54,955 bases of DNA, from positions 1-54,955 of the forward strand of contig JASWJB010000301.1 in assembly GCA_032433595.1 (NCBI GenBank). Direction: 5' to 3'. Below, piece by piece: positions 2,671 to 50,049 of this stretch. Source of the stretch: Conoideocrella luteorostrata (Eukaryota; Ascomycota; Sordariomycetes; Hypocreales; Clavicipitaceae). The position numbers and the translations under genes were made by a program. Position 1 is the first letter of the stretch. Each line of letters begins with the position of its first letter. The notes under the pieces were generated by a model, which did no database searches, was not told the origin of the DNA, and saw only the letters and a program-made list of their open reading frames with translations.

Positions 2671-4068
2671 ATGCCGACAACCTCTCGAGCCAATCTCATC
2701 GCGCGCGCCGTCATATCCCAGTTCAACAAACTCCCAGCCAAGCGAAAACCTACCATTCGAGACAATGGGCTTCATGAATGGGTTCCCCTGAGCGGGATAG
2801 TCGCCGAACAAGATGGGCACCTAACATGTTTGGCCTTAGCGTAAGCTCTTTTCTTCAAAACACACACACAAAAAGAGACAGAACCAGCATTGTATTTACA
2901 TTCCTTAAGCGTGAATATGTTCTAAAGGATCGATTCTTAGCACTGGCATGAAATGCCTTCCAGCGTCGAAACTGCAACAAGCAAATGGCAATGCTATACA
3001 CGACTGGCACGCAGAGGTTCTTGCAATGAGGAGCTTCAATCGGTTTCTTCTGGATGAGTGCAGAAATGTGCAGCGGGGGCAATCCAATGAAGTGTTAGAA
3101 CTGTCCAACATGTCTGGCAGCAAGCCATTCCGCGTGAAGGACAACATAAAACTGCACATGTACTGCTCCGAAGCGCCATGTAAGTATGGTCTCGCAGCCA
3201 GCTCAAAACCCCCTTCCCCGCATTAACTGCCCTGAGATGTGATTCTAATTGCATATGAGTAGGCGGAGACGCAAGCATGGAGTTGATCATGGCAGCACAG
3301 GAGGACGCATCCCCGTGGGATATTCCTCCCCCACCGCCGAATACAAAGGGAGACCCAGTAGCGGAAGATACACTCCCTGGCCGAGCCTACTTCTCGCAAC
3401 TTGGTATCGTTCGACGGAAGCCTGCGCGCGGCGACGCCCCGCCAACTCTTTCCAAATCGTGCTCTGATAAAATCACCCTGAAGCAATGCACATCGCTACT
3501 TTCGTCCCTAGCATCACTGCTCATCAATCCCTCAAACGCATATATTGAAACTTTGGTGTTGCCAGAATCTGAGTACTCGGCTGTAGGATGTGAAAGAGCT
3601 TTTTCCCGGCGCGTCAGGGCTCTGCTTCAGAGGCGTTGGTCGGGAGGATACAAGTTCAGCCCATTCGCCATTGAGACGACTGAAGAAGAATTTGAGTTTT
3701 CACGGAAGTCTGTGAGGAGGCGGGCTGATAAGATTGCGCCGAGCAATCTCGCCGCGGCATGGACATGTGGTGGAGTAGAAGAGACAATCCTGGGGGGTGT
3801 ACTTCAGGGGAGGAAACCATTTGATGAGAAGGGCGCAAGCAAGATGTCGAGAAGGATGATGTGGCTGGCTGCCAGGGAGGTATCGATCCAGTTGGATGGC
3901 CATGAGGACATCCGCCAGTGTTTGAGCAGTGCAACATACCAAGAGATTAAAGATGGGAGTTTGTTAGCGGAGAGACGGCATGTCAAACAAGATGTACGCC
4001 AGTCTGCCCTTACTGGCTGGGTCGCCAACCAAGGCGATTCAGCCTTCTCAATAAACACTGACCCCTGA
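2671..4068 (+). CDS. tad1: tRNA-specific adenosine deaminase 1 (Tad1/ADAT1)
   Basis: Converts adenosine 37 of eukaryotic tRNA-Ala to inosine (family function). Three exons, 2671-2840, 2941-3179 and 3263-4068, with two short GT-AG introns (100 and 83 nt), give a 404-residue protein. The zinc and proton-transfer residues of the deaminase core are visible: His80-Ala-Glu82 in DWHAEVLAMR, Cys137 in SEAPCGD (its codon is split by intron 2) and Cys203 in SKSCSDK. The C-terminal part carries the AAAWTCGG-like substrate-binding block of the ADAR/Tad1 A-deaminase domain. The ATG at 2671 begins MPTTSRANLIARAV, a plausible N-terminus for the family, which has no targeting signal. It is convergent with egd1. 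Confidence 0.93.
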
Positions 4069-4552: not shown

Positions 4553-5290
4553 CTACTCAACCTTGTTCTCGTTTTCGAAGTTCTCGCCCTCAACAAGGTC
4601 AGGGATCTCGTCGTCATCCTCGCCCTTCTCGCCCTTTTGCATATTCTGATAGCTCTCTGCAAGCTTGCGGAGGGAAGCGAGAGAGTCGGGTCCAAGCTGG
4701 TTCAGAATACCAGGGACGAGCTCAGTCAGCTCCTTATCCTCACCGTTACCATAAATGGCAAAAGTATTGGAGGGAACAGCGGCGTGAACTATATCATCAA
4801 CCCAGAAATGTCAGCCAAGCGTTTTCTTCGAATGACCCTCATTGGCATTTTAATCCAAGCAGTTACGTACCCGTAGGTTTGTTGAAGTGGATGACATTGC
4901 CATCAGACTTGAACATGTTGACCTCCTCAATGGCCTGAATGGGCTGAGTGTTTAACTTCTTCAGGGTCTGTTGAAGTTTCTTGTCGTCGGCGCCGGATCG
5001 GGCAGGCGCACGCTTGACCTTTCTGCGGGGAGTGCCTTTGCCACTGCATTTCGATACGAATGGCCAATGGTTAGCATCCAACGTCTGAAATTTCCGTTCG
5101 GAGGCGACAAGGGATGCATGGAATTGTCGTCGGGTACACGATTGATTGAAACTTACCCTGTATACACGTATTAGACATCTTCGATTCTCCCATCACTCCT
5201 ACATGATCATGATTCTCCTCTGAAGGAAATTGACTCACCAGTTCGGGCGCTCGCGCCAAGCTTCTTAAGTCGCTCCTGGATGTCGGCCAT
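4553..5290 (-). CDS. egd1: Nascent polypeptide-associated complex, beta subunit (NAC-beta / BTF3)
   Basis: Ribosome-associated chaperone subunit that binds nascent chains with NAC-alpha. Exons on the minus strand: 5290-5239 (52 nt), a single nucleotide at 5157, 5043-4871 (173 nt) and 4788-4553 (236 nt, with stop). The total is 462 nt, or 153 residues, a normal NAC-beta length. The N-terminal ribosome-binding stretch contains the conserved GGKGT-RRKVKR motif, followed by the NAC domain ([38 protein letters not shown] blocks) and an acidic C-terminus. Without the one-base exon the reading frame and the second glycine of GGKGT are lost. The introns around it are 81 nt (GTGAGT donor, CTAAT branch site, CAG acceptor) and 113 nt (GTAAGT donor, CTAAC branch site, CAG acceptor). 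The family call is very secure; the microexon is an inference from frame and conservation. Confidence 0.93.
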
Positions 5291-6092: not shown

Positions 6093-8716
6093 TTACCAGC
6101 TTGAAGGACCAAGGGGTGTGGTTACGTTCTCGATAAACTCCTTCGTCACGGCGGTGCCATTGTAATCTAGGGTGTCTTGCCACACCTTGGTCCCCCACCA
6201 TTCGGGGAACTGAGTCTCACTGAGACCCAAGCCGAGACCGGAAATGACGGTGCAGAGAGCTGTGCCAATGTCAAGAGCACCGGACAAAGCATAAGTATAG
6301 CGACTCCACCAACCGAAGAACATTCTGCGGATGGCAAGGTTGAAAATCAGGCCGACAATGACCCACTGGAAGAGGAAGTAAAGGGTAGCAGGAGGAATCA
6401 TTCCAGCGGCGCCAAACAGAGCGGGAGTAATAAGGTATCGAAGGAAGGTTCTGGGGTATCTCCTGGCAATCAAGAACTGAATCACAGGCACGATGAAGCC
6501 GATAAGCCAGAACCAATTAATCCAGGAGTAAATACCGCCGGCACCAAACACCTTCTTGGGGCCAATAACCCCCCAGATGACACTGGCGTTGTAAAACGTT
6601 CGGGCGTTGGGGCAAGTAAGACCCTGGGATTGCTTTGGGGTGCAAATCTCGTGAATGTTGCCACGTAGGAAGTTGTAGGTGCTAATCTGGACAAAAGACA
6701 ACCAGATCACAGCAAAAGCCTGGGCGGCGAACATGCTTCGGGGGGGGATCTTCATGTAATGGCCAACCTTCATATCAGAGATATAGTTGAGGCCATTGTA
6801 TGACAGCATGTAACCGTAGCTCTTGAACAGCATCATGGCAACGGGGCGCCCGGGCATCATGTAGCCGATGATCATTTCGGTGACGATGTTCAATCCCGTT
6901 TGCTGGTTGGTAATAGCCTGAACCATACCAATGGGAATGAAGAGAACGGCACCGATGAGAATGCAGATGATGTACGCCCACCAGGGCAGATGGGTATCCC
7001 AGACCTGGCATGCAATCATGCCAAAGGCAAAGCTGATGGCAAAAATGCAAGCAAACCACCATTCAGGAGCTTCCTTGTACTTGCGCATGAGCTTCATGTG
7101 CACATCAGGCTCATCATACTGCGAGTTCTTGGCGCGGTTGACCACGTCCTTTCCGTAGAATAAGATGACGTGCATTATGGTAGACATGAGACCGGCAAAT
7201 CCCATACCGTATGACAGAGAGAAGGTAGGGCCGAGGATAATGGGAGAGTAATTCTGATAAGCGGTCTCATTGACGGTGAATTCGGGAGTAAGGATGAGCT
7301 TTGTTTGATATGGCTGCGCGAATCTGTCGAAGTTCTGGTTGGCACTAATCGGCAGATATCGGTAGTACTCGGGGCCGGCAAATGCGAGACCAGCGGCACC
7401 AATAGTCATAATACAGATACCGGCAAACACGTTGAGGATAGCGAAGGCAGGGGATTGGAGAGGCGAGGTCAAGAAAGCAGTAACGGTCGACCAGTCCAGG
7501 GACATGGGCATGAGGCCAAAACCAGTATTACCACCGAAAATCTGGTTGACAACAACGTTGGACGGCGCAATCCAAGTCGGCCACATGAAGTAACTCAGAA
7601 AAGGGGCGATGACCAGAGGGAACCACTCCCAGACAAAGGTACTGCCGGCAACGAGGAGGAAAAAGCTGTATCGACCAATCTTCCATCCGTTGGTGGCTGA
7701 AGGATCCGACGCACTATGATCGTGAAGCGAGTACATGACCGTGCAGGTGATGAGAGTCGCGGGCCACACCATGGAGGATGGCCACACAAGGAATCGTCGG
7801 GCAATACCAGCAACACCGAAACCCATAGCTTGGGTAGAGACCATGAGAAGAATTTGAAAACCCCACCTAAAAAGAAAATTCATGGTCAGTATTAAAAAAA
7901 AGAGTTGACATTACGATGGACGAGAAAAAGAGGGCCAATGTTCACTTGAATTCCTGCTTGTAAAAGATTTCTTGGGCCAGCAAGATGTCGATGGCGTAGC
8001 TGAGAGAGCTGCCGGCAGCAGTCATCATGGTGATGATGGTATGTTCCTTGGGGTTGAAAGGACCGGGATTGATCTCGATAGAGCGGCCGAAGACTCTAAT
8101 GGTCTTGGCAGGCATGAACTTGGCCCAACCTACACCAATTCTACGATGCTCGCGGTTAGAATATAGACTCTACACACGAAATTGGCGGGTTCTAGACAGA
8201 AGCAAAACTCACGGGTAAGAAATAAGCTGGACAACGGTGGAGGAAATGGAGATTGGCGTGCGACGCATGCTGAGCAAGACATTGCATGCAGCCACGATGG
8301 TGCAAAGGAAAGCGCCAATAGACCAGGCTCGGAGGGTATTGACGGGGACATCCATATCGGTGGGAGGCACCTGTTGCGCATTAAATTAGCCAACCCGACC
8401 AGTGTCCTACCATCATGACTGTTCTGGGCTCATGAATACTAACCGAGCTGCGGACTTCCGGGTAGGGAGAGTCTTCCTGAATCAGCGACTCATCGATGGC
8501 GGCCTCCTTCTCGGCATTGCCAGAAGCGAGGGCATCGTCGATGTTGTCGAGCTTGTCGATATCCAAAAAGGGATCCCACTGATGCTGGCGTCTAAACCGG
8601 CGCAGTTCGCGCTCGGTGCCGGCGGCATTGGGCAGGACATCAGAGCCGGTGGTCTCGGCGGTGGTCTCTGCCGTTGTCTCGGTGGACTTGAGTCCAAAGC
8701 GTTCCTTGAGACCCAT
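6093..8716 (-). CDS. Small oligopeptide transporter, OPT family (isp4-like)
   Basis: Proton-coupled importer of small peptides, in the plasma membrane. Four exons on the minus strand, 8716-8444, 8370-8213, 8140-7946 and 7866-6093, all with GT-AG introns, give 799 residues, the usual OPT length. Family marks include SPYPEVR at residues 83-89 just before the first membrane span, and KIPPR at 581-585. Many hydrophobic spans follow (for example around residues 100-130 and throughout the large last exon), consistent with 12-16 helices. The N-terminus is hydrophilic and Thr/Glu-rich and lacks a signal peptide, as expected. The exact peptide or siderophore-like substrate cannot be read from sequence. 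A TATA-like element lies about 145 nt upstream of the start. Confidence 0.95.
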
Positions 8717-9781: not shown

Positions 9782-11596
9782 TTTGACCAATGGTCCGACC
9801 CCATCGTGGGATCTTTTGTTTCTGCATCAATGATTTCCCCATAGCGCTCATTGTTTACTCGTGCAGCAACATCAAGCACGGCTTGAACAACGAGGAGACC
9901 GCAAATGCAGCGTAATGTGGCGTTCCAGGACGGAGTGCTCCGTTCAGATCGTGGAAAACGGACCTCCTCTGCTCCGTAGTCTCAAGCCATACGGAGTACA
10001 TGCGAATGGTAATGGGCCATAGGTTTATCTCGGCCGCCGGAATGACGGAATGGCCGCTCCAGCATGGTTGGTTATAACACTAGCAGACTCTGGGAGGTGT
10101 ACTCGGTAACTACGTTCCCCGTCAAATAGAATACGATGCCACGTCTGATGCAGGGCAATGCACATGGTGGCAATAGTAAAAGTCAAATGTCCCCGACGTG
10201 CCACCACGTCCGGCCAGGCAATTCAGGGATGGAGAATCCGGCCGAGGTGGCAATACTCTGTCTGGTACGGCAGTCTGGCAGATCTGGCACTGCGCATTGG
10301 CTACTGGCTGGTGGCACTTGATGGAAGATGGGGTCATCGGTCAGTTTGTTGGTTTCTGGTATCTGGACAGCGCGGGCGTGGGGAGGGTGGAGCCCTGTGC
10401 CAGCACCCCTGCAGCGCTAGCTTCTTTCTTATCTGGACACTAGTAGAGACTAGAGGCAGGGGTCGCTGGGGGTCGCTGAGGATCTTTTGTCAACACCACT
10501 TTGACTTATTAACTAATATCAGCCCTCTCACAACTGGCTGGGCAGGGGCCGTCTCGGGTTCTTGGGCGTGTCGAACCCAATTTGCCAGTTTCCTCCGCTC
10601 ACACCTCCCTTCGACTTTGCCTCAATACTCCGTGTACATACAAAGGTTTGATAGTGGCTTTGCTCAATTGCAGTTCCAGACTGATGTTTGATATTTTTGC
10701 TGGACAATACGGAGCACAACAGGGAGCTGTCCGGTTTGCAGCATCTGTACTGGTGTTGACGTGATGCCCCGCCAACTAGTCTATCAGCCAACCCCCATCC
10801 CTTCGCCGTTTTCATCTTCGACAGCAAAAGCTGAGACACGGCGCATTGTCGTGGGCACAAATTCATATGAGAAAAATACGTTACCAGTGCCCCCAGCGAT
10901 CAGTGGCTTGATGGTTCGGAGCACAGAGTACGGAGTGTTGATCGTATCGAGTATATGAGCGGCGCATGTCTGCAGCCCACGGATTATTAGTAGGAGAAAC
11001 TCAGATATTTTGCCGGCGGGGGCATCGCAGCCACTCGCCAAGCTCGAGATTCCGCCTTCTACGATCCCATCCGCCGTTTTTCCGCGCTTTGCACCTGCTC
11101 TTATTGCTGCCACCGTGCCCCGGGTTCATCGCTTTGACGCCAAAACAGAGCTGGTGGTGCGCCTGGCGCCAGCCTTCATCTCGCCTAGCCGCGGACGTTG
11201 CCTTTCACCAGGGGGGCTGCTGAAGCCACCTAGGTCAGCACCTCCTGCTTCTTTCGTCGTGATGCACTTCTCGTTCAATGCTGGCGACGGCGGTACGGTA
11301 ATGGTAGCGACAGGAGAAAGAGAAGCGCGGCGGCTCTGGGGGGCAACATGGGACTTTGAGACTGGCATGGATGACTTTACCCGTATTAACCAATAGTGCA
11401 ATCGCTGTAGCGCATCAAACGGCAGGCGATTGAATTTGAAGTTGAATTCCCCATACGAACTTTTGTCTGTCACAGAAAGGCGCCACACACCAGCTACCTT
11501 GGGGAACCTAATCTGCACAAGGCAACAGGGTTCAAGTGGCTTGTGAGGCCTGTTCGCGCGACTTTTCAAAGTGCTTGCATCATGGTCCTCCTTAAC

Positions 11597-11616
11597 TACT
11601 CCGTAGCTACGGAGTA
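11597..11616. repeat. 20-bp perfect palindrome
   Basis: TACTCCGTAGCTACGGAGTA is its own reverse complement. It consists of two TACGGAGTA-type 9-mers in inverted orientation around a GC centre. Confidence 0.95.
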
Positions 11617-12937
11617 CATACGTGGAATACAAATATGGACTGTCAGCGGGGGGATTGTATGCAATTGGCTCTACTCCGTACAACGGCGGCGTTTGGGCGT
11701 CAGGGTTTCTCCTTCTTCTTTCCATATAGCCGCCAACCTTAGCTTGTCTTGGCAGACCTTTTGAACCCCGACTTGGAACAGGCACTTTGCCGTACGATAT
11801 TGGATTATGCGCCATCTCTCAAGACTCCTCTATACAGTACAGCGATAACGCAATATTGATACCTAAACGAGTTTAGCAGGCACACTGACATGTACAAGCA
11901 GCGCTTGTTGGATGACAAGCGTCCCATCCAGCGAGCAATGCGCTCCCACGTATCTATTTGGACCCTCTCGAGACGGGGCATGACATGCTTGGGTGGACCT
12001 ATCGAACAGCTCGTCTAATCTTTCCACGATATACATACAAGAATCTGCTTGGCTGTGTTCCATCATGGGGTGCGGGTGGTCCATAGAAGAAAACAGGGCT
12101 AATTAATTACATTGGTTGTGGATGGAGGTGTAGGCGACGAGCCCGTACGTTGTAACAATCCGGATCTGGTTTTTTGGGAATTTATATCTCCCTTGTTCAA
12201 AAACGAGTTCCGACAGGCAGAGGAAATGGAGGCAAATCGAGGAGGCAAATCAACATGCACCTAGTTTGGAGGGAATACACGATCTTGACATTAGCACTCA
12301 CCCCCCCTTCGGAGGAGGCTCAGTCGAATTAGCCAACCGCGCGCTATTATATCTTATATATTCACTTCTCCTGGCAATATCCAGTTAAGGTCGACAAAGA
12401 TAAATAATAACACTTCTCCGCCTCTTTAACGTTCAACCCTGCCTCAAGGCCCATCTACTTCGTTCGTCTTTACTCGTGAACCGTTGAACATGAAATAATA
12501 TAATTTTTTGATTGGCTACAGTATACTAAGTACATGCTCAAGCACCCACTGTCCAAGTTACAGCGACACCATAGTTGTTCAAGTTGCACCAGTTGGTTCG
12601 AGCTGTCGCATCGGAGCAAGCCATTGATACGAACAGGCAGGGGGCGCGAGCTGTCAAAGAAGAACAAAGACAGAGAAAAAAAACCCCCCCGAGCTTCGAC
12701 TGATTGCAAGGCCGACCGTTGAGTCGAATCCTCCAGGCACTTTTGACCACATGTCTCTCCGCACCGCTGGCTGGATGGACGTGTCGTGTCGTGTCGTTAT
12801 CTGGGCGAGCGCCACGAGATCTCTAGGCATTGCTGGGCATCGCCAAGGACATGTCGCCAAGTCGGCTCAGTCGGTGCCGATAATACACGGCGACGGGGAG
12901 AGGTTGTGCGCCTTTGCGACCCCATCGCCTGACATGG

Positions 12938-16949: not shown

Positions 16950-18323
16950 TCAAGTAAACTGTCTAGCAACATGCTTCGCACCCTGCTCATACATCTCCCT
17001 CAAGTCCTTCACCAGCGCCTCTGGCCTCTCATGGGCAGCAAAATGCCCACCATCGGCATGAACTTTCTCAAACACAACGGGCCCGAGGGTCCTCCCCCAA
17101 GTCAGGGGCGGGAGAGACAAGTCCTTTGGAAAATACGACAGCCCCAACGGCACATTAGGCACGTAACCGGTGCCCTTTCCCGTTTCCTCGAGCTCCGCAT
17201 GAGTGCTTTCGTAGTAGATGCGCACGCTGGCGGCAGCACCGGCCGTCGAGAATTGATAGATGGAAACCCAAGTCAGGATCTCGTCATCAGTCCAGGGGTA
17301 GCTATCTGTCCAGTCGTGCAGCTTCTCATAGATCCATGCCAGCAAAGCAACGGGGTCGGCGAGAGCAATGCCGATTGTGGAGGGGCGGGTGCTCTGCTCG
17401 ACGTTGTATCCTCTGCCTTCGGTTTGGAACCACTCCGAGCGTCGGCAGAACTCTTTCTCGTAGCTGGTGTATGGGAGCAGCATGTGCTTGATGAACAGCA
17501 ACGGTGTCTTGGTGAACGTTGGGGGAGATCTGACCCGAATATAGTTGATGTGTGATGCGAGGCAGTGAGTCGGGTAGCGGATGCCGATCATGCGAGTGAT
17601 AATGAAGCCCCAGTCGCCGCCTTGAGTGACTATTTCGAGTTGATCTCCGTCAGAACGACACAACAAACAAATCTGAAGTGTTTGGGTGAAGGCTTTGCTG
17701 TCTGCGTCGGTTTGGCCATGGGACAGACTCACCGTATTTGTTGTATCCCAGCGCTAGCATGACCTTGTGGCAAACCTCAGCGTACTGGGGGATGCTGAAT
17801 CCCCTCTGCTTCACGGCGTCTGAGAAACCAAAGTTGGGGAGCGAAGGGGCCACAACATGAAACGACTGACCCTCCGCCGCGTCCGTGAGAAGCGGCAGGA
17901 TCTTCGCAACTTCCATGAAGTGTCCCGGCCCTATCTCTTCATGATTAGTTTCGCTTCCCGTCGTCGTGATATCGCAGAGTTGGCAAGAGACTCACAGCCA
18001 TGACAGAACAGGAGGGGGATACTTCCGGGACGGGGACTCGTTTTATGCACAAAGTGAACACACAGACTCCCAAAGCCCTCCACATTGACGGTTGTTTTGA
18101 ACTGCGGCAGCTCAGCATTCAACCTGGCTTCCTGGGCGCGCCAGTCGAACCCGTCTTTCCAGTACTTGGCGAGACGCTGGACGTCATCTCGGGGTGCGCC
18201 GTACGCCCAGTCATTGGAGAAGTCTACCTCGTCGGGGAGGTCGGATACCGCTAGTTTGTCCTTCAGCCTCTTTATGGCTGCGTCGGGCACGGCAATCTTG
18301 AATGGCGTCATGTTGCTGGTCAT
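16950..18323 (-). CDS. Epoxide hydrolase, EHN-domain / microsomal type (alpha/beta hydrolase)
   Basis: Hydrolyses epoxides to diols; in fungi such enzymes serve in detoxification or secondary metabolism. Exons on the minus strand are 18323-17996, 17930-17733 and 17629-16950; the product is 401 residues, typical for the family. The N-terminal EHN domain spans about residues 5-80 ([18 protein letters not shown], then the [10 protein letters not shown] block). The oxyanion motif is HGWPGH at 108-113, the catalytic nucleophile is Asp181 in TQGGDWG, and the likely catalytic histidine is His371 in DGGHFAAHE. There is no clear N-terminal membrane anchor, so the enzyme may be soluble. The intron 2 acceptor has an in-frame alternative about 15 nt upstream (adding five residues); the shorter form fits the family better. 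A TATA-like box lies about 155 nt upstream. Confidence 0.93.
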
Positions 18324-19169: not shown

Positions 19170-22100
19170 TTAATCTTCCCCCGTTCCGATCACAGCAGCC
19201 AATCGATCAAGAAGAGCACTATCGGCCTCCGAAGTCGGCGTCAATCTGTCATCTGAATATATATCCTCGTCCTCGTCCTCATCATGGACAGCACTTCCAC
19301 TCTCTGGAACAGTCGGTGTGGCGGCCGGCGCCATTCCAGTAGCCAAGGGGTGAATTGCGACAGATTTGGAATGATCAGATAGAGGTTCCATGGGAGTGGG
19401 CGGGTTCATAGGAGGCCAGCGTTGAGCGGCCGCAAGTACAGCCTTCCCGGGCTTATAGGTTTTACCCATGGCAAGCTTGATCATGACCCAATGGAATATC
19501 CACGGGAAACTAATCAGCGGCACACGGGGTCTGTCTCCCTCATCACCATCGCCTTCGGGCTCGCGAGCAGCTTTATCCTGCTCCGCCGTGATCTTGTACA
19601 TAGCCGCGACAAATTTTTCTAGCGACTCCTCTCGCGACTCCTCTCGTCTATCGCTGCCTATTTCCTTGTAGCATTGCTCTCTGAAACGTTGCTTTAAAGC
19701 ACCGTATTCCTGGCCCAGCTCTTCCTGACGCTTGTAGTCACTGCCAATTCTGGGCTTGGACAATGCCCAACCGCTATAAAGCTCAAACTCGGTTTTGACA
19801 TCATACTGCACGAGAAGGCGGCCAACGGAGATGTCGTACTGAGTCTTGATTTTTTTGGCTGCGTTAAGCGTTTCTTGGCCGATTTCGAACTTTTCGAGAA
19901 TCCTGTTGTCGAATGCATGCTCCGAGCTGGGATGAAATTGGATCGTGTGTTTAACGACCTCATCGAACACCGCGCCCAATGCTTTGTTAGATCGGTATGT
20001 TATCTTCGCCCTCTTTTCCATAAAGTGCGGCCACCTCTTCGGCGCCTCTTTGCGGTCAAAAGTGGCTGGCTCTCCTGTTTTTGGGTAGTCTACAGCTTTG
20101 GAGTGTTGATCTGCCAGTTTTAAACCTTTTATGTCACACAGTCAGTATGAAAAGCCATGCGAGCCAAGTTGGTCAGAGGGCTTCTTACATTTCTGCGACT
20201 TTGGTCCCTCTTGATCTGCAAAGCATAAATGTGCTGTTGCAATCAACGGAAGAACATCATTTTTCATGTAGTTGACGAAGAACTCTCTCATGTCATCGAC
20301 CGCAACATCTCGGTCTAGTTCTCGGGGTTTTGGCCCTTGATAGTTCATCGGAGGATGATTCCATTCGCTGGGAATGAGCTCAGGGTCCCAGATGACGAAA
20401 AAGTCGTCACCGTCAAGATCGCCACCGGACAACATGTTTGGAATCGGTCGGTCTCCTGTCGAAGGGAAAATGACAACGTTACTCAAATGTCTCAATCTCG
20501 GATTGTCGACCGCTTGGACAACCCGAATATCTCCAGGATGAAGGGATGGATTTCTCCCCACAATGCAGACGCCATGGATGACGGTCTTCTGATTATGATC
20601 TGGGTTTGCGACCTGTAAGAAAATTTGAGGAAGCTTGTTGACGTCTTTGTCGGAGGAACCTTCAGTCTCTCGAGAGTGACCTCTAAGGGTTCCTGTTTCG
20701 TCGACACAGCCGAGAACAAAGGCACTCTGGGGAATATGTATCCGTGCCTTTTCCTTTAGTAGTCGAAATGACCAAGATATCCAAAGATTCAAAAGATTGG
20801 AAACGAATGGCTCCTTAACTCCAGGCGCGTCTCCCACAGCTCCAGATGTCTTAAAGCCAGCTTTCAACAGCTCAGCAAGCACCAGCGACGACTGATTCTC
20901 GTCGACAAACTTCGTGAGCAGCTGAACTGCAACAGAACAGTCCTTCGATGCCTTCTCAAATGATTGGATCTGGTCACGTAAGAGCCTAAGAAAGGCCATC
21001 TGCGGCACCCCAAGACTCTGGAGGATTGTGACGGTTTGTCGATTTAGTGTTGCAGTGGCATGGGTCGCACACCGAATGACCTCCAAACTCCTGGATTTGG
21101 AACTGAATTTGTCCTGGGAATGGCGAGTGTGAACTTCCATTCGCTTAACATGTTCTGGCCAAACGACGAGGACGCCTTTGCTACCGCCCATACGGAACTG
21201 AAATGCAGTTGGTTCGCTCAACACGTCTAGTGTCATGTCTTGCATGATGGCTTGGGCAAGAAACTTAGAAATGCGACCAACGCCATCGGTGAAGCAGTAA
21301 CCATTCCGTTCTATGTCATCTATGCGTTTGATTTCCGGTACAGGTATTCCCCTTATCTCCCGTGTTGTAGAAAAGCACTGGCCTAAGCGCGCGCCGTACT
21401 TGGCAACAATCTTGATGTGGTCAAATTGACCCATCCAGGCCCGCATATCGTCACAAGATACATTGTTGGTAGGGCAGAAGAAATAGGCACCGTTTTGCCT
21501 AAGCTGGGAATTTCCGAAGGCCAGAAATTCGTACACACGATGCCCAATCCGGATGCCTTCGAATAAAGTCCTCCTCACACGCTTCCAGATATCTTCGTTG
21601 TGGAACTTATTAATGCCAATGCTGCCAGATTCAGATTCTTCGAGGAACTGAATACGGAGAAACCGATCCTGCAATTGGCTGTATTGACGGAAGACCCTAT
21701 TAGATGTTTCCACAGTTGGGGTCGAGAAGAGTATTGTTGTGGGAGTAATGGATGCTTTTCGCACGTATGCACAATAGTGCGGAATTTTACTGCTAGGAGG
21801 AACATAAAACTCCGCGTCTTCCATATCGAAGAGTTCCATAGGCTCAAAAAGCTTACTATCTTGATCAGCAAGATATTCGAGTCGACGGGTGGCATCCTGA
21901 GGTGAGAGACTGGCGAGTCGTTGAAGAAACTCAAGACCAATTGTGTACTCATTCAGGATACCACGGGAAATGCAGACCTCAAGCTGGTATCGAACGACAA
22001 ACTCCAGGTGCACAATGGGCGGTAAGCCAAGTAAGGCCGACGGTTGATCTGCTCTGACCGAAGACGGATGATCCAGGAATTGCCATGCCCCGAGAGAATC

Positions 22101-22712
22101 CTGCGTGGTCTCGAATTCGCAGTTTCCACGGATTGTAACATTGCACTCTGCCAGGAACGACAGAAGACGTTCATATGACTTGGACGAGAGAGCGTCTTTT
22201 TTGAGTGAAAGTCGAAATGCAGTCCACCGTCCAATGTTGTATCCATCAGGCGTGTCACTTTGAAGGGAGACTGGATGTCTGAGATTTTCACTCGTTTGAA
22301 GAATATCAGTCGCTCTATACCAAATATTACCTGCACCCCATTGTAGCGAGTTATTGACAGTATCATTCTTTCGGAAATACTTGGGCGGGCGGGGCAAGGG
22401 GATGACCAGGTGTCGAAAGTTTTGTTCGCTTGAAGACTCAAAAACTGTTTTAATCGTAGACAAGTCAATGGAGATTTGAAAGATTGATCTGGATTTTGCC
22501 CAACTGTTGGCTTTCGAGGGCTCTGTGAACAAAGGAAAGAAGATATTGATCTGCCTGCGCTGGACATCAACCTCTAACGAAAGAGCAGCGGAATAGCTGG
22601 ACTTCATAATTCGCATTAAAGACGGCTTGAGCATGCATCCAAAACTTAGCGAACTCAGCTTAAGCTCCAATGCTCCTGGTCCTGGGGCAGCCAGGCGTCG
22701 TCGTGAGGCCAT
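19170..22712 (-). CDS. Eukaryotic RNA-dependent RNA polymerase (Rdp1/SAD-1-like RdRP)
   Basis: Makes double-stranded RNA from single-stranded transcripts and feeds the Dicer/Argonaute silencing pathway (family role). Two exons on the minus strand, 22712-20189 and 20125-19170, with a 63 nt intron (GTAAGA donor, AAAAG acceptor); the product is 1159 residues. The catalytic DLDGD motif is at about residues 765-769, in the context NMLSGGDLDGDDFFVIWD. Just after the intron comes the family block HSKAVDYPKTG. An N-terminal RdRP-type segment covers most of exon 1. The C-terminus is acidic (DEDEDEDIYSDD) and probably disordered. By its N-terminal blocks it looks closer to Rdp1/SAD-1 than to the longer QDE-1; that assignment is an inference. 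A stop codon lies shortly upstream of the ATG, so any extra N-terminal domain would need an unseen exon. Confidence 0.93.
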
Positions 22713-35752: not shown

Positions 35753-38700
35753 CTAACCAAAGTGCAAAGCCTCGGCCTTTTCGCAAGTGAAGAGGTTAAT
35801 GTGATGGTCACCACGGGCTGCACATCCCAAGATTGGTCGATGCGGGTGGAAAGCCGTTGCGGATATGGGAGCTCCTCGATTCTGCTGTAGGAAACTAGAG
35901 TATGGCTCGAGGCGAGAAAGCTCATTCCCATCAAGATTGAACACTTTGACCGCGTGCTGCGATGTACCACTATTGCACAATGTCAGTAAACACGTATATA
36001 CATAATGTGACAAGCAGCATCAGGCTCTCCAATCAGAAAGTAGAGGGTCACTTGGACTTACACTGCAAAGACGGGCAGATGCTCGTGCGTGCTGGCTGTG
36101 CGCAGCGTGTCCCGGGTCGTCTGGAAAGAGTGCAAGGGCTTGTCCATTCGGATATCCCATATCTTGACTTTACCGTTCCGACTGGCACTGACCAGTTCAC
36201 GCTGCCCACCTCGCTGCATGTGCACGCTCTTGATCCACTGCCGGTCTGATTCATCCTTCCACTTGCGAACCATCGAGTCCTGGGGCCGCTGTCTAGTATC
36301 AAACACTCGCACCGCGCCGTCGCCAAATCCTGCAACAAAAATGTTGCCGGTCATTTGATCCGACGTCAAAGACGTGACGCACGAACCGGACCTGGCGGGT
36401 ATATCCATGATACAAGTCTCGTGCGCTGCATACCACACACGGATCACTCTCACATCACCTGCCACAAGGACCCGGCCGGTCACTTGTTGCCAATCAAACA
36501 CCATGCCCGAGTTGACGTTGCTGGGAACCATGTGCGTCAAAGCCCGCCAGGAAGTTGCGAGTTCGACCTCCTTGTCCGAATCGTAATTGCGATACACACG
36601 GATCACGCCGTCCGAGGAGCCTGTCATGAGGAACGCCTGGTCATCCTCGTTTATAAACTTCATGTCGCTAATTTTAGATCCTTGAGGGTTGCCATTGGAG
36701 AACCGGCTCAGGCGATTCTGTTTCTTCCAATCCCACAAGTAGACAGTATTACCATCATCCGATACGGCCAAATGGTCCTCATACTGATGGAACGTCATCT
36801 TCACCGGCTGAGCTCCGTTATTCACAACCCCCAGTTGGTTGTTCCACTTGTGAGTACCCGCAATCTGCTTAAGAGGTTGGGTCTCCCTAAGCATATTCTC
36901 GTTACGAGCTCTTCTCCACAGACGGGCGTTATAGTCGGTACTGCCAGGCTCGTCTGCTTCGCTCGGCTTCATTTGTGGTTCGCGAAAATATTCAATAGAC
37001 CACTCAAGCAGTCTGCTTTTGAGCGGCAGAGTAGGGGGTTTTGAGAGATCCCTTTCTTCATAAGAACCAGTCATAGGCTCACGCGCAACATTGTACGTGG
37101 CTGGCGCAGATGCTTGGTCGATCTGTTCTGGAGGGGCAGCCATCTGATCTGGTCCGAGTTTGGACGATGGTGATCGTGGGGGCATAGGGCTTGCAGGAGT
37201 GCTGGGCCTTGATCTATCCTCGCCTCCAACAAATGACTGGAAGAGAAGGCTGGCAGTTCTGCGTAAGATGCCTGGCGATGGCAGCGGAGGCGTTGCTTGT
37301 CCACTCAAGTTGGATCGCTGCGCATTATGTGCCGCATTGCTCAAAATAGCCGCTTGTCTCGCTCTGGTTTGAATCTCTCGCATCAAAACCTGAGCTGCTT
37401 CTCCAACGGTCGAGTTGAGTAAGGCGTTATGCACAAAGTCGACGATTAAAGTAGCTTCCCGTTGCACCTCGGGGTGCGGGTCAACGCTTAGGATAAGCGC
37501 ATGTTTCCAGCAAGCCATGTAAACGGTATTGTGCGAGAGACCATGGGCAGTGGGCTTGATCGTACCGTCCTTCATTCGGTTCTCGGGTCTCGCGTAGTGC
37601 AGCCCCATCTTATAGTCCTGTCCATCATCCCGTGGTGGATAAATCAAGTATTCCTTTTCTTCCAGAAGCTGTTCGTATGCTGCGACAAGAAATTTACTTT
37701 CAAATCGAGTTATGAAGTGAGACAAGAAGATCAGAAACTCTTTGCGTACCATGGGGCTGCCATCGGTGCCCATCTCCAGGATCGTCCAGGCTATTGACTC
37801 TTCAACACGGGCCACCTCTTCCGTCAGATCCGGAATACCTAGAAACGTAGTCAAGGCATGGATCATCGAGGCACGAACTTCACAGCAGGGATCTCTCATA
37901 AGGTAGGCCAGCTTGGCGTAAGCATTTTCCCTGATTCCTCGCCATTTTGCTTCAGGCAAATCTTGCCACAATTGGCTAATGCACAGGCAAGCCCATTGTC
38001 GAAGCAAGGGATTGTGCTCGTTCTCTAGGTGAGCCAGGCAGTAGGACATGATATCCGTCTGGTTGCACACCATCTGGCCATTCTTGTAATCTTTGCAAAG
38101 CATCGCCAGAATGAAGGCACACATAGCCTTGTGCTCGTCGCTGTCGACAACGGGAAGTCCCTCAGAGGGCTTGAGGATTTGCGCAAAGTAGCTGTATCCG
38201 CTGTCTTTGATCAAGTCCTGTTGGCATGAGAGGTCCACGGCGATAAGTCTTGCCCATATGAAGACCATGACGGGTTTTAACTCTGCAGCTGCAGACTGAA
38301 GAAGTTTGAGCACGTAGGGGAATATCCCTATGCTGAGCGCCAGCTGAACAGACCACGGCCCTAGGTCCAAAAACCGACCCAACAAAATGAGAGCCCGTAC
38401 TCGATGTTGTTGACTGAGCAGAACCTGCAAAACGACAGGTAGTTGATCGGGGGGCCGTTGGGCAATAGCATCGCCCCTGGTCAGGTACACATCAAAGGCA
38501 GTAAGCTGTTCCGTAAAGAACGTGGAGTTCTGGTATTCGTATTCGATACCCTCAGCTTCCTTTCTCTCAAGCATAGGCAACTGCGCCAACGCCATGTCAA
38601 CGGCCAAGTCCCACGTTTCCCACAGCGGATGTTGATGCGTATCTGGCAGGGCTGGGTATGACTGCGGGTGGCAGCCGTAAACAGTCATAACTCTCTGCGC

Positions 38701-40288
38701 CAACAGGAAATTTCTAAATAGTGCAGCGACCATCAGATCTTGACGGAAAAATTTGCGGAACAAGTCTCGAGGCAAAGTGGTCCAAGCAATACTATCCGTA
38801 ATGGCAGTAAATATCCAGTTGAGCTCTCCAAGCGGTGTGCGTCTCTCTTGAAGACGTCCCGGGAGCTGCTTGGCGCGTTCAGGTGTCAAGTTGGTCTTGA
38901 GTGGATTCTGAAGTACGAAGAACCATAAAGCCATCTCTATCGGTGTCGTCAAACATGCTGTAAAGAGATCGGCAGGTAACTGTGGGTTGGTAGGGAGATT
39001 CTCCTTGACAGCGCAAGCAGCCAAGTGAATATAGGGCCGGAAGTTTGTCTTTTCATAATGAGGGTCCCTGTCTGCGGCGTCGTCTTCCTCCTCCTCATGC
39101 TTCTCCACGAAGCGATGATAATTACTGAGAATGTTCCCAGCTTCTGAGCAGTCCCAGACGAATATGGTTGGGGCTTGCAGCCAGTGCTGTAAGTCGTATA
39201 GCGACACTGGAATATACTGGGTATAATTCTTATTAAATACCCAGATCTCTCCAGACGCAGTTGGCTTAGGGACGCCGTGACCGTTGTAATGCAATAGAAC
39301 CCGCTCATCTTTGGCATTTCGGCGCAACGACACGCAAAACTTCTTTGTTTCCTCAACAGACGGGTCGAGATATTGCTTATAGCGAGCTCGGATAGCCAGA
39401 GTTTCATACTGAGTTTGGAGTGCCTTGCCAATGTTTTCCAACACCTTCTGGACCGGGGGCACAGTCGGATCGGTCCAAGCTTCGAGCTTTGCGCCAGGAG
39501 TTGTCTTGAGCTGGTCTGGAGGCTCAACCCCTATGTTTAGGCACACGGCCAGTGCCGCAGACACAGTCTTGAGCCTATCTCTTTGCCTCCAATCCTGGAG
39601 CTCATATTCAAGACGTTTCGGTTTTCCCGTCGTCTCGTGTCGTTTATCTGTGAAATACATATACCAGTTCTGGAATGGCATCATCAGCATATGAAGTGGA
39701 ACACATACATGGACATGCTTCCCGCAGGTCTTTTGGGGTAGTTTAGCTCGGGGAAACGTGTCATGCATGCAACGACTACCAGCAAAATTTCGTTTGCAGG
39801 TGATGGTATCACAACGATGACATGATAGGCACGTGTCCCATTTGCGCGACTCGAGCAGTAGCAAACACGAATGTCCAGCGTATAACAGAAGGGAATCATG
39901 GCAAACTTACACTTGCCAGCTGTGAGATAATATGTTCGGACTGATAGTGATCCTCGAAGCCATGTCGAGCTCCCCATTCACGAATCTCTTCTTCGGTATC
40001 AGAATCTTCGACAGCGCGTGCTGTGTAATCACTCTTGGACCGCTGCAGCTGTGGTTTAACTGGGCGTTTCCGTCTGTCGTGCTCGAAATCGTCTCGGGTC
40101 TCGGTAGAAACGGCATCATTGTTCCTACCGGGTGCGCTAGAGGGTCGTACGCTATCAGCGGTATTGTTAGAGAGGTCGTCGCGGTCCGGGCTGCTGTCGC
40201 CTTGACCTCGGAATCTTGATGTTGATGTCTCGCCATTGGTGGCAGGAGCCGACGGCACCGACCCATTCGGGTCCGATCGCAGTGTCAT
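35753..40288 (-). CDS. kog1: Raptor / Kog1, TORC1 scaffold subunit
   Basis: Substrate-recruiting scaffold of TOR complex 1, which couples nutrients to growth. Exons on the minus strand are 40288-39911, 39669-36062 and 35969-35753; the product is 1400 residues. After a low-complexity N-terminus (about 1-100) comes the raptor N-terminal caspase-like domain, with HYNGHGVP at 253-260 and WDCSEAG around 298-304. HEAT-like repeats occupy the middle, and WD40 blades the last 350 residues or so (for example IRVWYAAHE, VRVFDTR, VKIWDIR). Both introns have canonical ends; intron 1 joins the QLAS block to NWYMYFTDKRHE, a junction conserved in raptor. The ATG at 40288 (GCGGCCATGA context) is the first in frame; the frame stays open upstream to 40621 but has no ATG. 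Confidence 0.95.
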
Positions 40289-45443: not shown

Positions 45444-48400
45444 ATGGCCTTCCTTTTCAAGTCCAAGAAGAGCCAGGACCGCACGTTGTCGAGTCGCGAT
45501 GGCAACTCAGGGTCGCAAGGGTCTATTCAGAGTACCGGCGCTCGATTAGCTCGCGATGAAAAGAGCGCCGCTCAAAGAGCTACTCCCACCGGAAGCATGA
45601 ATTCCATCGACGAAACGGGCACTGGAAGTCCCGAACAAGTTCGCCGTGGAGGAAGTCTAGAGCAGGGGCAGCCTTCAGATTTAGCCGTAAGTCGCTCGGG
45701 AAAAAAACCCCGGAGACGTTGGTGCCACTTGTTCGATTGTGCTAATTGAGTTTCTTTTGATAGCTTCGAAATGGATCGCAATCATCGAATCCCAATTCAT
45801 CGCTGTACCCGTGGTCGCAACGGCGGTTAACGTACACACCGCCAAATCCGACTCCTTTTCCTAGATATGGCGCCGCCGTCAATGCCACCGCGTCGAAAGA
45901 AGGCGATATTTATATGATGGGTGGTCTAATCAACAGTTCCACCGTTAAAGGCGATCTGTGGTTGATCGAGGCCGGTGGGAATCTAGCTTGTTATCCGCTC
46001 GCAACCACTGCTGAGGGTCCCGGGCCCAGAGTCGGACATGCCAGTTTACTCGTCGGCAATGCTTTCATTGTTTACGGTGGAGATACCAAGATCGAAGAAT
46101 CCGATGTCCTGGATGAGACTTTATACTTGCTGAATACCTGTGAGTAGAATGGTTTGCTGGTCGCACAGAGATACGGATGGCAGAAACTGACAGGCACCTA
46201 TAGCAACGAGACACTGGTCCCGCGCGCTGCCAGCCGGGCCCCGACCTTCTGGACGATACGGGCATTCACTCAACATATTGGGCTCCAAAATCTATATATT
46301 CGGTGGTCAGGTTGAGGGTTTTTTTATGAACGACCTCGCGGCCTTTGACTTGAATCAGTTGCAGGCGCCCAATAACAGGTGGGAAATGTTGCTGACAGGC
46401 GATACTTCTCCCAAAACGCCAGCAGCCCGCACGAACCACTCTGTGGTTACATACAACGACAAGATGTACTTGTAAGTATACCCCAAGGGACCCAGGTTTT
46501 GAACCAGGTCCGGCATACTGACTGGAGTGACACAGATTTGGCGGAACCAACGGTTTCCATTGGTTCAATGACGTGTGGTGTTACGATCCGGCCGTGAACT
46601 CATGGTCTCAACTGGACTGTATTGGCTATATTCCTGCCCCTAGAGAAGGCCATGCGGCCTCTCTAGTCGACGATGTTATGTACGTCTTTGGCGGACGTAC
46701 TGAGGAGGGTACCGATTTGGGTGATCTGGCTGCCTTCAGGATCAGTTCGCGGCGATGGTATACTTTCCAGAATATGGGCCCATCGCCATCCCCAAGATCG
46801 GGCCACAGCATGACTACTGTAGGTAAATCTATCGTCGTCCTTGGAGGTGAGCCTAGCTCAGCCACGACTACTATCAACGACCTGGGCATCATGTATGTTC
46901 TCGATACGACTAAGATTCGATATCCCAATGATGGTCAACAGGGAGCCCAGCGGGTAACTCAAGGGGCCCGCAGGCCGAGCACGAGTGACGCCGCAAATCC
47001 TGCCAACCGACAACTGGCTACTGCCTCTGCCATGCAAGATCCACGAAAACCTGGTATGGTCCCTGCTGGTGCTGGTGCTGGTGCTGCCGCTGCCGCCGCC
47101 GCCGCCGCTCCTGCGACCGCGGCCACTCCCGTCAACAAACCTCCCAACGTGTATACCTCATCACCTCCTGGGCAAGACCCTACTTTACAACAAAACTCGA
47201 CTCCCCCCTCGACCGCTCCTCCTGCGGCCCCTCCATCTAAGCTTCCCAGAGCGGGTGTTGCACCAAGTCCAGCTGGACCGCCTCCAGCTGGACCGACGCC
47301 AGCCAAACCCGCCGTCGAGGCGTCCAACATAGGCCGAGTTCGGGGCGCATCCGCAGATCGAACCGTCGTCTCCGGCTCTCCGCAGACTATAGCTGTTCAA
47401 TCTCCGCCTGTTGTGCCCGAGAATGAAGTAGTTGCCGTCAACGGGCGACGAACACCCACGCAGGCAGCTCAGGGGGTTCAGGCAGCCCAACTGGGAAGAA
47501 CTGGATCCAAGCAGGAACAGCCTGCCGTTGACGTGAGCAAAAGAGGCCACCGTCATTTGCAAGGCTCTCTGGATAGCGCGGCCGAGTCAGGAATGAGAGC
47601 TATTCGGCCGTCATCTCCGCCCCCTCCGACAAGGCAACCCAGCAACCCTCTTTCTCGTCGATCATCAGGCAGGAATTCGCAAACCGTGGCTCTTCTCAAA
47701 GAATTAGACTCAGCTCGGAATAGGAATGCGTGGTATGCTTCGGAACTGGAGCTCGCGCGAAAGGCAGGATATGTCTCGACAGCGACAATGAACCCACTCG
47801 ACGCCAAGGCCGCTGAGACATTTGACGACGAGGATAGGCCACTTATCGAAGCGCTCTTGGCGATGAGAACAGAACTGGCCAACGTGCAAAGTGCTGTGGA
47901 CAAACAGGCGATCCTTGCCGCAAAGCAAATTGCCGAGTCAGAGAAGCAACGCGACGCTGCCATTCATGAAGCGGTATATGCCAAAGCCAAGCTTGCTGCA
48001 CACACTGGGGGCAGCTCGTCGAGCACTCCTCAGTTGGACGGCGAAAGGGACGAACCCGGCGATCGATTTGGCGAAATGGCCAAGAAGCTAGCTGCAGCGT
48101 TGCATCTGCAAAAGGATCTCAAATCACAAGCGGAACACTTTAAAGCAGAATTAACGGCAGAAAAGAATGCTCGCCAACTAGCCGACGATACTACATCTGC
48201 CGCTCAAAGGCGTTTGACTGACTTGGAGGCTTACAAGCAGCAAACATCCGCCGAAGTTGAGCGGCTGAAGGCGGAGCTACATTTTGTGCAGCGAGAGGCC
48301 CGTGAGAACTCTGTGACATGTGCCGAGGCCGTGGCTGCACTAGAGTTGATCAAGGTGGAGAGGGGCGAGTTCGAATCCAAGTATAATGCCGCTGTCGGTT

Positions 48401-50049
48401 CGTCAAAGAATCACGACGAAACGTTTGAGTCCCTGAGAAGCGCCATCACGGCATCACAGGACGCCAGATCGCATCTAGAGAAGAAACTTGAAGAGGAACG
48501 CAGCGCTCGCGAAAAAATTGAAGACAAATTAAACAATCTAAAGATGGAACATGAGGCTCGCACGACGGAGCTGGTCACCTCGACTCAACGACTGCGCGAT
48601 GCTGAGGAACTCGCTGAGAAGCACGCTATTGAAGCGCGCACTCACCGCCAGGCACTGTTGTCAGGACTTGACAAGATGTCAAGTCGAGAACTGGCCGATG
48701 CTGGCAAGGGTGAAGGGGTTCAACGTGCTGCAGCCCTTCAGAAACAGGTTGCGACGGCCAACGAGTTGGTCAAGAAGTATCAACAAGAAGCCAATATCGC
48801 CGCGGACAAATTGCGCAGCGCTGAAGAGCGAATTGCTGGCCTGGAACAGTATCAGGAGCAGTCAAGCAGAGAGGGTGTCGCCATAAGAAGACAGCTTCAA
48901 TCTGCCCTGAGAGATACGCAAACTCTTCAAGCTGGTCACACGGATCTCAAGAAGCAGCTCGCTGGCCAGCAGCTCGAGACCAATGCCATGACTGTGCAAC
49001 ATAACGCGCTCAAGGATATCTTGGCCGAGCGTGGCATCAGCCCTACAGGCGCTGTGCGATCTCGCGGGCTGACCAGCCCCCGGACCAACTCTCCTGAACA
49101 AACCCGCCTGCGCGACTTGGAGGCGCAACTCCTCAATGCTACTACAGCGCATGAGGAGAGCAGACAGCAATTTGCATCTCAGCAGCAAGAGTCGGAGATG
49201 GCATACCGCGAAAAACTCCAACAGCTTGAGAGCGACTACCAATCGGCAGTGCACTACGTCAAAGGGACGGAAAGGATGCTGAAGCAGCTGAAAGATCAGC
49301 TGTCTCGATACAAGACTGATAACGGACGTCTGAAGCTGGAGATTGAGGAGCTAGAAGGCCGTCTTGAAGGTGACGGTGAAAGATCAGGAGGGGCAGCACA
49401 TGAAGGCTGGGAAAGCGAAAGAGATGCTCTGAGACAAAGAGTGGGGACTCTCGAGTCTGAATTGAGGACGTCGGGATCTAAGCTGGAAAAGAGTCTTGAA
49501 GCTTTGAAGAAGGAGCTGGCCGACAACAAAAGGCAGCGTGATGAGGCGGTCAAGACGTTGACTCTACATCGCGGTGATTTCGAGCAGCTACGATCTGAAA
49601 ATGCCCTCCTCGAGCAGCGTGCTGGCGATGCCGAGAAGAAGGTGGCTCTGCTCCTTGATCAAGTTGAGGTGTCGGTGGATAACTACCGACGACGCAGCCG
49701 TCAGATCCCCAGCGTGACGTCGGAGAGCACCAACGGTCTGGCGCTCGGGCACAGCCGCAATGAGAGTTCTGAAAACGAGAGTGTGTATGGCGAAACCCAA
49801 GATGCTAGAAACAGCGCCGCACTTGACAATCTTGCTAGTGAGCTCGAGACTCTTCGCAGCCACTGGGAGGCTCATAACAAGAACTACCGGTTGAGCAACA
49901 ACTTTGACTTTGACGCCCCGGTAGTTGCTGGCACGAAGCAGCCGCCACCCGAGGAAGCTTCAGCCAATACTGGCCTCAGCGAAAGCCTCGCCGACTGGAG
50001 AAAGAGGCTCGACACGGATGATCCCCGCTTGGGGGGCGACAAGGCTTAG
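45444..50049 (+). CDS. tea1: Tea1/KelA-type kelch-repeat and coiled-coil cell-polarity protein
   Basis: Cell-end marker that travels on microtubule plus ends and directs polarised growth of hyphae (Tea1/KelA family role). Exons are 45444-45686, 45764-46139, 46204-46471 and 46536-50049; the product is 1466 residues. Six or so kelch repeats span about residues 90-425 (for example YIFGGQVEG, FGGTNGFHW, YVFGGRTEEG). A Pro/Ala/Ser-rich linker follows, then a very long coiled coil from about residue 680 to 1370, rich in Glu, Lys, Gln and Leu. A trinucleotide tract at about 47062-47109 encodes a Gly-Ala then poly-Ala run. All introns are short with GT-AG ends. The start has a strong context (GCAACCATGG). 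It diverges from kog1; a degraded gene fragment lies about 125 bp downstream. Confidence 0.94.

Follow-up and report, generated by a model that had tools for sequence, protein, structure and literature searches.

One-nucleotide exons have been reported in the plant genes APC11 and VPS55 (PMC4674806, PMC8831610) and in the Fusarium gene CYP621A (PMC12940212); the authors of the CYP621A study count their case as the second such example and the first from a fungus. The APC11 exon is known from Arabidopsis (PMC4674806), and the exons of APC11 and VPS55 have been described across land plants (PMC8831610). As reported for these cases, construct tests in APC11 indicated that the exon base itself enters the mRNA (PMC4674806), and splicing of the CYP621A exon is backed by SRA reads (PMC12940212). 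Splice sites in the Pezizomycotina are described as pairing across the intron, that is, by intron definition (PMC5639578), and an exon of one base should thus pose no obstacle in principle. Here, we report on the NAC-beta gene (egd1) in a stretch of 54,955 nucleotides (nt) from Conoideocrella luteorostrata (assembly GCA_032433595.1, contig JASWJB010000301.1, positions 1 to 54,955 of the forward strand), which in its full length is referred to as the window. We are highly confident that base 5157 of the window is a constitutive one-nt coding exon of egd1, flanked by two U2-type introns within the codon of Gly18. The exon had been noticed in an earlier reading of the sequence by itself, hereafter the original prediction, and our analysis confirms that observation. 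In all likelihood the exon is real, and its presence in the Pezizomycotina probably goes far back, because a single splicing solution fits the sequence, the junctions of homologous proteins agree with it, a control junction is largely intact and gene models carry inserts that look like read-through of the exon. The description of one-base exons as extremely rare is fair, but such exons were already known from APC11, VPS55 and CYP621A.

egd1 is complete on the minus strand, with a coding sequence of 462 nt including the stop codon and a product of 153 amino acids. The gene is of the NAC-beta (egd1/BTF3) type, as had been claimed: the product matches the NAC domain PF01849 in Pfam (E 1.3e-23, 83.1 bits against a cut-off of 21.3), and BTF3 chains in the PDB, which we take to be mammalian, match residues 5-151 (E 1.9e-42) and carry GGKGT without an insert. 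A close named homologue is the protein of Claviceps maximensis (94%). egd1 was the sole match in a search of the whole 46.4-Mb genome of 620 contigs. The coordinates, splice sites and intron lengths (81 and 113 nt) of the original prediction were each found to be correct on re-reading the sequence (Table 1).

Joined directly, the ACT-G end of exon 1 and the T-GGC-AAA-GGC start of exon 3 are one base too few to encode the conserved Thr-Gly-Gly-Lys-Gly-Thr, and the proposed division of the Gly18 codon as G + G + T over three exons, with one extra G needed, holds. When two-intron solutions were enumerated (GT/GC-AG ends, introns of 30 nt or more, first donor 41-69 nt downstream of the ATG), exactly one of 7,776 combinations gave the conserved ARTGGKGT protein, namely GTGAGT...ATACAG-G-GTAAGT...ATGCAG. 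The lone base lies directly between AG and GT, and both introns have complete canonical signals. In the same stretch, enumeration of single canonical introns gave no solution with the exact conserved protein, and the open frame was kept by 6 of 563 single introns, with extra or changed residues each time. The simplest of these, overlooked in the original prediction, has its donor four bases downstream (GTGA/GTCAAT, the slash marking the end of the exon, with last exon base 5235), joins to 5043 and adds one Asp to give ARTGDGKGT. The claim that the frame is lost without base 5157 is thus true for direct skipping, which leads to a stop after 44 amino acids, but not for this +4 donor; an alternative splice choice that keeps the frame, which the original prediction had set against the exon, does exist, but not with the exact protein. 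The base is accordingly needed for the conserved motif, the frame alone being kept by the +4 donor also. Other splicing errors stop early as well, after 18 amino acids when intron 2 is kept (GGG-TAA) and after 27 when intron 1 is kept. Early stops of this kind could expose transcripts to nonsense-mediated decay.

Only two DYTRAY branch-like motifs occur in the 195-nt stretch between exons 1 and 3, at 5175-5170 and 5075-5070, and each intron has its own, TCTAAT in intron 1 and GCTAAC in intron 2, in agreement with the earlier reading. Chance was assessed in 20,000 dinucleotide shuffles of the stretch in which the first 6 and the last 34 nt stayed fixed. The core AG-G-GTRWGY arose together with branch motifs for both introns in 8 of these and without the branch condition in 39, while branch motifs with any GT taken as donor arose in 438. 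In the whole genome, CAGGGTAAGT was found at 58 places against 86 for the backward control; it is not enriched, and the count is uninformative on exons. A motif-based intron survey of the window gave 30 candidates with a median of 125.5 nt, 12 of them at least 190 nt, with false introns mixed in. Length by itself does not exclude an intron of 195 nt, and the survey of lengths was not used as evidence.

The gene structure of relatives was read back from their proteins through the genetic code. Three protein searches were made, of which the best 120 matches each (out of 4,147, 3,955 and 4,920) listed 300 distinct homologues. NAC-beta DNA of relatives was also sought in viral and bacterial/archaeal contigs, and no relative was found there. 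We label as transcript-type those proteins whose source column named only lgn, jgi, ena or merc, and thus no ncbi, nr or uniref source, since uninterrupted reading on short contigs implies a spliced RNA or an intronless gene. To these was added P0009, whose UniRef entry bears the name of a firefly and which we regard as fungal contamination in a transcriptome; the rest are genome models. R-x-G-G-K-G-T was read exactly in 75 of the 76 transcript-type proteins against 29 of the 224 genome models (Fisher 3e-45, a value inflated by relatedness), and the comparison with relatives proposed in the original prediction thus supports the exon at the level of proteins. By search, the exact junctions were 36/36, 35/35 and 4/5 for the transcript-type proteins and 13/84, 14/75 and 2/65 for the genome models. 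Searches one and two together gave 71/71 against 27/159; the query of the third search, P0229, carries an insert itself, so that inserted models were favoured there. The closest transcript-type protein among the matches listed, P0001, is 95% identical and reads TGGKGT, and 17 fungal homologues, picked as exact readers and aligned with the window protein, all share Gly18-Gly19-Lys-Gly-Thr.

The junction between exon 3 and exon 4 served as a control and was intact in 210/224 genome models and 75/76 transcript-type proteins, the 14 failing models being substitutions and mis-joins pooled; a stricter pattern gave 199/224 and 69/76. Since this junction is largely intact, the errors are concentrated at Gly18, where 195 of the 224 genome models are not exact, mostly by inserted residues. 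Further faults are one Gly fewer and an exon 1 that is replaced or missing (30). Two junction patterns with slightly different results were used, giving 29 or 28 exact models, 47 or 49 with one extra residue and 14 or 10 with one Gly fewer. The models with one Gly fewer include those reading RIGKGT (P0124, P0126, P0127, P0161, P0183, P0196, P0200, P0235), in which predictors perhaps mended the Gly18 junction in another way. Models that also show added or altered residues at the exon 3/exon 4 junction are P0022, P0079, P0080, P0125, P0130, P0138 and P0198.

What we regard as the most direct evidence comes from matched pairs of transcript-type proteins and genome models, sharing at least 96% identity across 120 or more residues downstream of the junction, with up to five models per query. 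Among 45 such pairs (19 transcript-type and 29 genome-model members) the junction was exact on the transcript-type side in 45/45, against 3 genome models. For example, P0027 reads RTGGKGT, while the models of Trichoderma asperellum and T. atroviride, both 100% identical to it over 132 amino acids, read RTGYVAKSQQ... and RTECSALP..., respectively, and that of T. evansii (99.2%) reads RTGTGKGT. Similarly, P0051 reads RSGGKGT, and in the Cordyceps militaris model P0092, 100% identical over 133 amino acids, 12 residues replace the Gly.

The faults themselves may be decoded. Exactly one extra residue at the Gly18 junction was found in 47 of the 224 genome models (T 18, I 16, D 7, H 2, E 2, S 1, A 1) and in none of the 76 transcript-type proteins. 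The T, I and D extras (41/47) are as expected if a predictor moves a GTNNGT donor by 4 bases, the shift being decoded as GTAC-T = Thr, GTAT-T = Ile and GTGA-T = Asp. The window sequence would give Asp, and this residue is present in the public Claviceps models P0002 and P0003. In 21 of the 224 genome models the insert starts G-[Y/F/C]-V, which corresponds to GGG-TNN-GTN (e.g. GGG-TAY-GTN), the micro-exon G and its own GTNNGT donor read through. They belong to Pyricularia, Trichoderma, Drechmeria, Colletotrichum, Fusarium falciforme, Stachybotrys, Lasiosphaeria and Zalerion, to Aspergillus, Penicillium, Paecilomyces, Elaphomyces, Emmonsiellopsis and Cladophialophora, to Rhynchosporium and Sclerotinia, and to Orbilia and Drechslerella. 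Two models read G-x-V-C, as a +4 donor joined to the micro-exon G would. In a separate extraction by regular expression, 16 of 60 inserts began [YFCSLWH]-V, with YV in 14/60, against 1.5% predicted by composition; several models are close relatives, and p-values on insert starts are therefore overstated. A class of 28 models first labelled as read-through of the exon 1 donor was defined by a loose pattern and was not used as evidence.

Table 1. Features of the egd1 (NAC-beta) locus in window coordinates.
Feature	Position	Strand	Remarks
Exon 1, coding, 52 nt	5239..5290	-	Ends ACT-G, the G being the first base of the Gly18 codon
Intron 1, 81 nt, GTGAGT...TCTAAT...ATACAG	5158..5238	-	Phase 1, Gly18 codon
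Branch-site-like TCTAAT, intron 1	5170..5175	-	Motif scan
One-nucleotide exon (very likely), G, second base of the Gly18 codon	5157..5157	-	Unique solution, chance estimate, relatives' proteins
Intron 2, 113 nt, GTAAGT...GCTAAC...ATGCAG	5044..5156	-	Phase 2, Gly18 codon
Branch-site-like GCTAAC, intron 2	5070..5075	-	Motif scan
Exon 3, 173 nt, begins T (third base of Gly18) GGC AAA GGC	4871..5043	-	Protein match in own genome
Intron 3, 82 nt, GTACGT...ATATAG	4789..4870	-	
Exon 4, 236 nt including TAG stop	4553..4788	-	Protein match in own genome
Alternative donor GTCAAT, 4 nt downstream of main donor	5229..5234	-	Intron 5234-5044 would give ARTGDGKGT

These observations are best accommodated by two ordinary U2-type introns that would interrupt one glycine codon after its first (phase 1) and second (phase 2) base. 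Each would be recognised across the intron through a donor, branch site and acceptor of its own, and exon length would then be irrelevant to recognition. Simultaneous occupation of both neighbouring sites seems unlikely; with a single base separating the acceptor of intron 1 from the donor of intron 2, consecutive removal, in either order, is most likely, and either intermediate has normal sites (ACTGG/GTAAGT or TACAG/GTGGC, with the slash at the splice site). The arrangement appears to have been inherited from deep within the Pezizomycotina and to be often missed by gene predictors.

The original prediction also offered recursive splicing at the same G. In a zero-length recursive site the acceptor AG is directly followed by the donor GT. 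The sequence here is AG-G-GT, with one base in between, and the locus was therefore rejected as a zero-length recursive exon; the part of that alternative which stands is that the mRNA would be the same. A recursive-like process with an obligatory order, intron 1 first, overlaps the two-intron explanation in this respect and seems to us a possibility of rather low probability. Removal of intron 1 does leave a donor at the junction, and tightly packed, consecutively spliced stwintrons have been documented in the Pezizomycotina (PMC5639578), but intron 2 already has an unbroken, complete donor, and AG and GT do not abut. The name stwintron, as defined in that report (PMC5639578), was rejected for egd1, in which donors, branch motifs and acceptors are all contiguous.

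Much less probable is a single intron, 5234-5044, that uses the +4 donor and leaves the protein with the extra Asp and the gene with no micro-exon. Such an intron is canonical GT-AG and in frame, and the Claviceps models with the same Asp, like the 47 genome models with one extra residue, speak for it. Its donor GTCAAT, however, looks weak against the GTGAGT four bases upstream, the Asp disrupts a motif conserved in BTF3, and the transcript-type proteins are free of single extra residues. Moreover, the T, I and D extras are those of a +4 shift of GTACGT, GTATGT and GTGAGT, i.e. the repair expected of a predictor. An assembly or sequencing error, with a true extra G beside the exon 3 acceptor, one ordinary intron and a coincidental AG-G-GTAAGT, is more improbable still. 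A single base would suffice for it and the assembly is a draft, but the core with both branch sites arose in very few shuffles, and many relatives' models deviate at the same codon in ways implying the same one-base shortfall, which separate errors would not produce. Hardly credible is one non-canonical intron of 194 nt, for although four single deletions (GT-CA, TG-AG, GA-GT or AG-TG ends) give the exact protein and such an intron would also confuse gene predictors, it needs unusual ends where complete canonical signals exist and leaves the G-[Y/F/C]-V models unexplained.

Some observations weigh against the one-base exon or its general presence in relatives. GGKGT is exact in 29 of the 224 genome models, including those of Pyronema and Wilcoxina (P0158, P0174), and five exact models with a divergent QEILKKK/KAKFG N-terminus all read TGGKGT (P0083, P0089, P0098, P0102, P0107); exact models may come from lineages that have lost one or both introns, or from RNA-guided annotation. 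Asn and Lys, which GTAAGT-type first donors would give, are absent among the 47 one-residue inserts, and this is unexplained. The transcript-type protein P0289 is without the exon 1 sequence and its junction does not match; its different N-terminus may reflect an intron-retaining transcript. In addition, the transcript-type label was drawn from the source column and not from a recorded library type, the counts are phylogenetically non-independent, cover the best 120 matches per search and are biased to inserts for the P0229 query, and the gene structures of relatives were read back from proteins, while splicing in C. luteorostrata is something we infer.

On these protein-level signs the feature does not look particular to C. 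luteorostrata. We consider it quite probable that most or all Pezizomycotina (Sordario-, Leotio-, Eurotio-, Dothideo-, Lecanoro-, Orbilio- and possibly Pezizomycetes) descend from an ancestor that already carried the one-base exon of NAC-beta, which has since been retained in this housekeeping gene. Taxonomy was looked up for one species each of the Orbilio-, Pezizo-, Leotio-, Eurotio-, Lecanoro- and Dothideomycetes, and the remaining species presumably belong to the classes to which we assign them. The one-residue form was seen in the Dothideo- and Lecanoromycetes. In the Pezizomycetes there was a looser sign only, in Rhizina undulata (P0294), the Pyronema and Wilcoxina models being exact. 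If ancestral, this would be the most deeply conserved fungal one-base exon known to us, and confirmation of its age would mean that a one-base exon is no short-lived accident. Exon-based recognition cannot find a one-base exon, and stable use in a housekeeping gene would, if true, thus demonstrate intron definition and consecutive splicing cleanly in a natural gene. Loss of one of the two introns would mimic a one-nt intron slide, which would make the gene a ready-made test of apparent sliding; the QEILKKK/KAKFG-type group is a candidate for such an apparent one-base shift. The frequent errors at Gly18 in NAC-beta models of filamentous fungi would, if the reading is true, also be explained and could be fixed in annotation pipelines.

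The window harbours other open reading frames (ORFs). Convergent with egd1 is an ORF with an adenosine-deaminase (editase) domain (3277-4068, plus strand; PF02137, E 6.7e-12), and upstream on the same strand as egd1 is a large OPT oligopeptide transporter ORF (6093-7883, minus; PF03169, E 2.1e-144). Further away are an RNA-dependent RNA polymerase ORF, presumably of the type used in RNA silencing (20142-22712, minus; PF05183, E 8.6e-180), a Raptor-type ORF with PF14538 and WD40 matches (36058-39864, minus) and a Kelch-repeat ORF (46573-50049, plus; PF24681). Three ORFs of 229-283 amino acids without a Pfam match (11126-11815, 16950-17732 and 19170-20021, all minus) may be exons or chance ORFs.

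A search of the open-access literature by titles and abstract starts, with subscription papers mostly outside, found no report of a one-base exon in NAC-beta. Among described fungal systems, the stwintrons of Pezizomycotina resemble egd1 in having two packed U2 introns that are removed consecutively and mis-annotated, but there the internal intron breaks a splice signal of the external one, whereas in egd1 the signals are intact with one exonic base in between (PMC5639578). Xlr2 of Trichoderma virens likewise has a micro-exon in a filamentous fungus, described, however, as a regulated switch exon (PMC11121469). Plant VPS55 resembles egd1 in having a one-base exon with a GTRAGT donor, an exon that is conserved there and absent from reference annotations; it differs in that isoforms with and without the exon are reported in some species (PMC8831610). 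Plant APC11 is alike in having a constitutive one-base exon on which the frame depends, but the base is A, the intervening stretch is 422 nt and the origin is separate (PMC4674806, PMC8831610). A like core is found in Fusarium CYP621A, where a G in AG-G-GT forms the centre of a glycine codon within a conserved motif and the exon was missed by nearly all gene models listed in that study (PMC12940212). As reported there (PMC12940212), CYP621A encodes a P450 said to be rarely expressed, and the case comes from one genus, whereas egd1 is a housekeeping gene with protein-level signs of the exon across several classes. The NAC-beta exon would thus be a further case of the known one-base exons, set apart by its apparently unusual depth.
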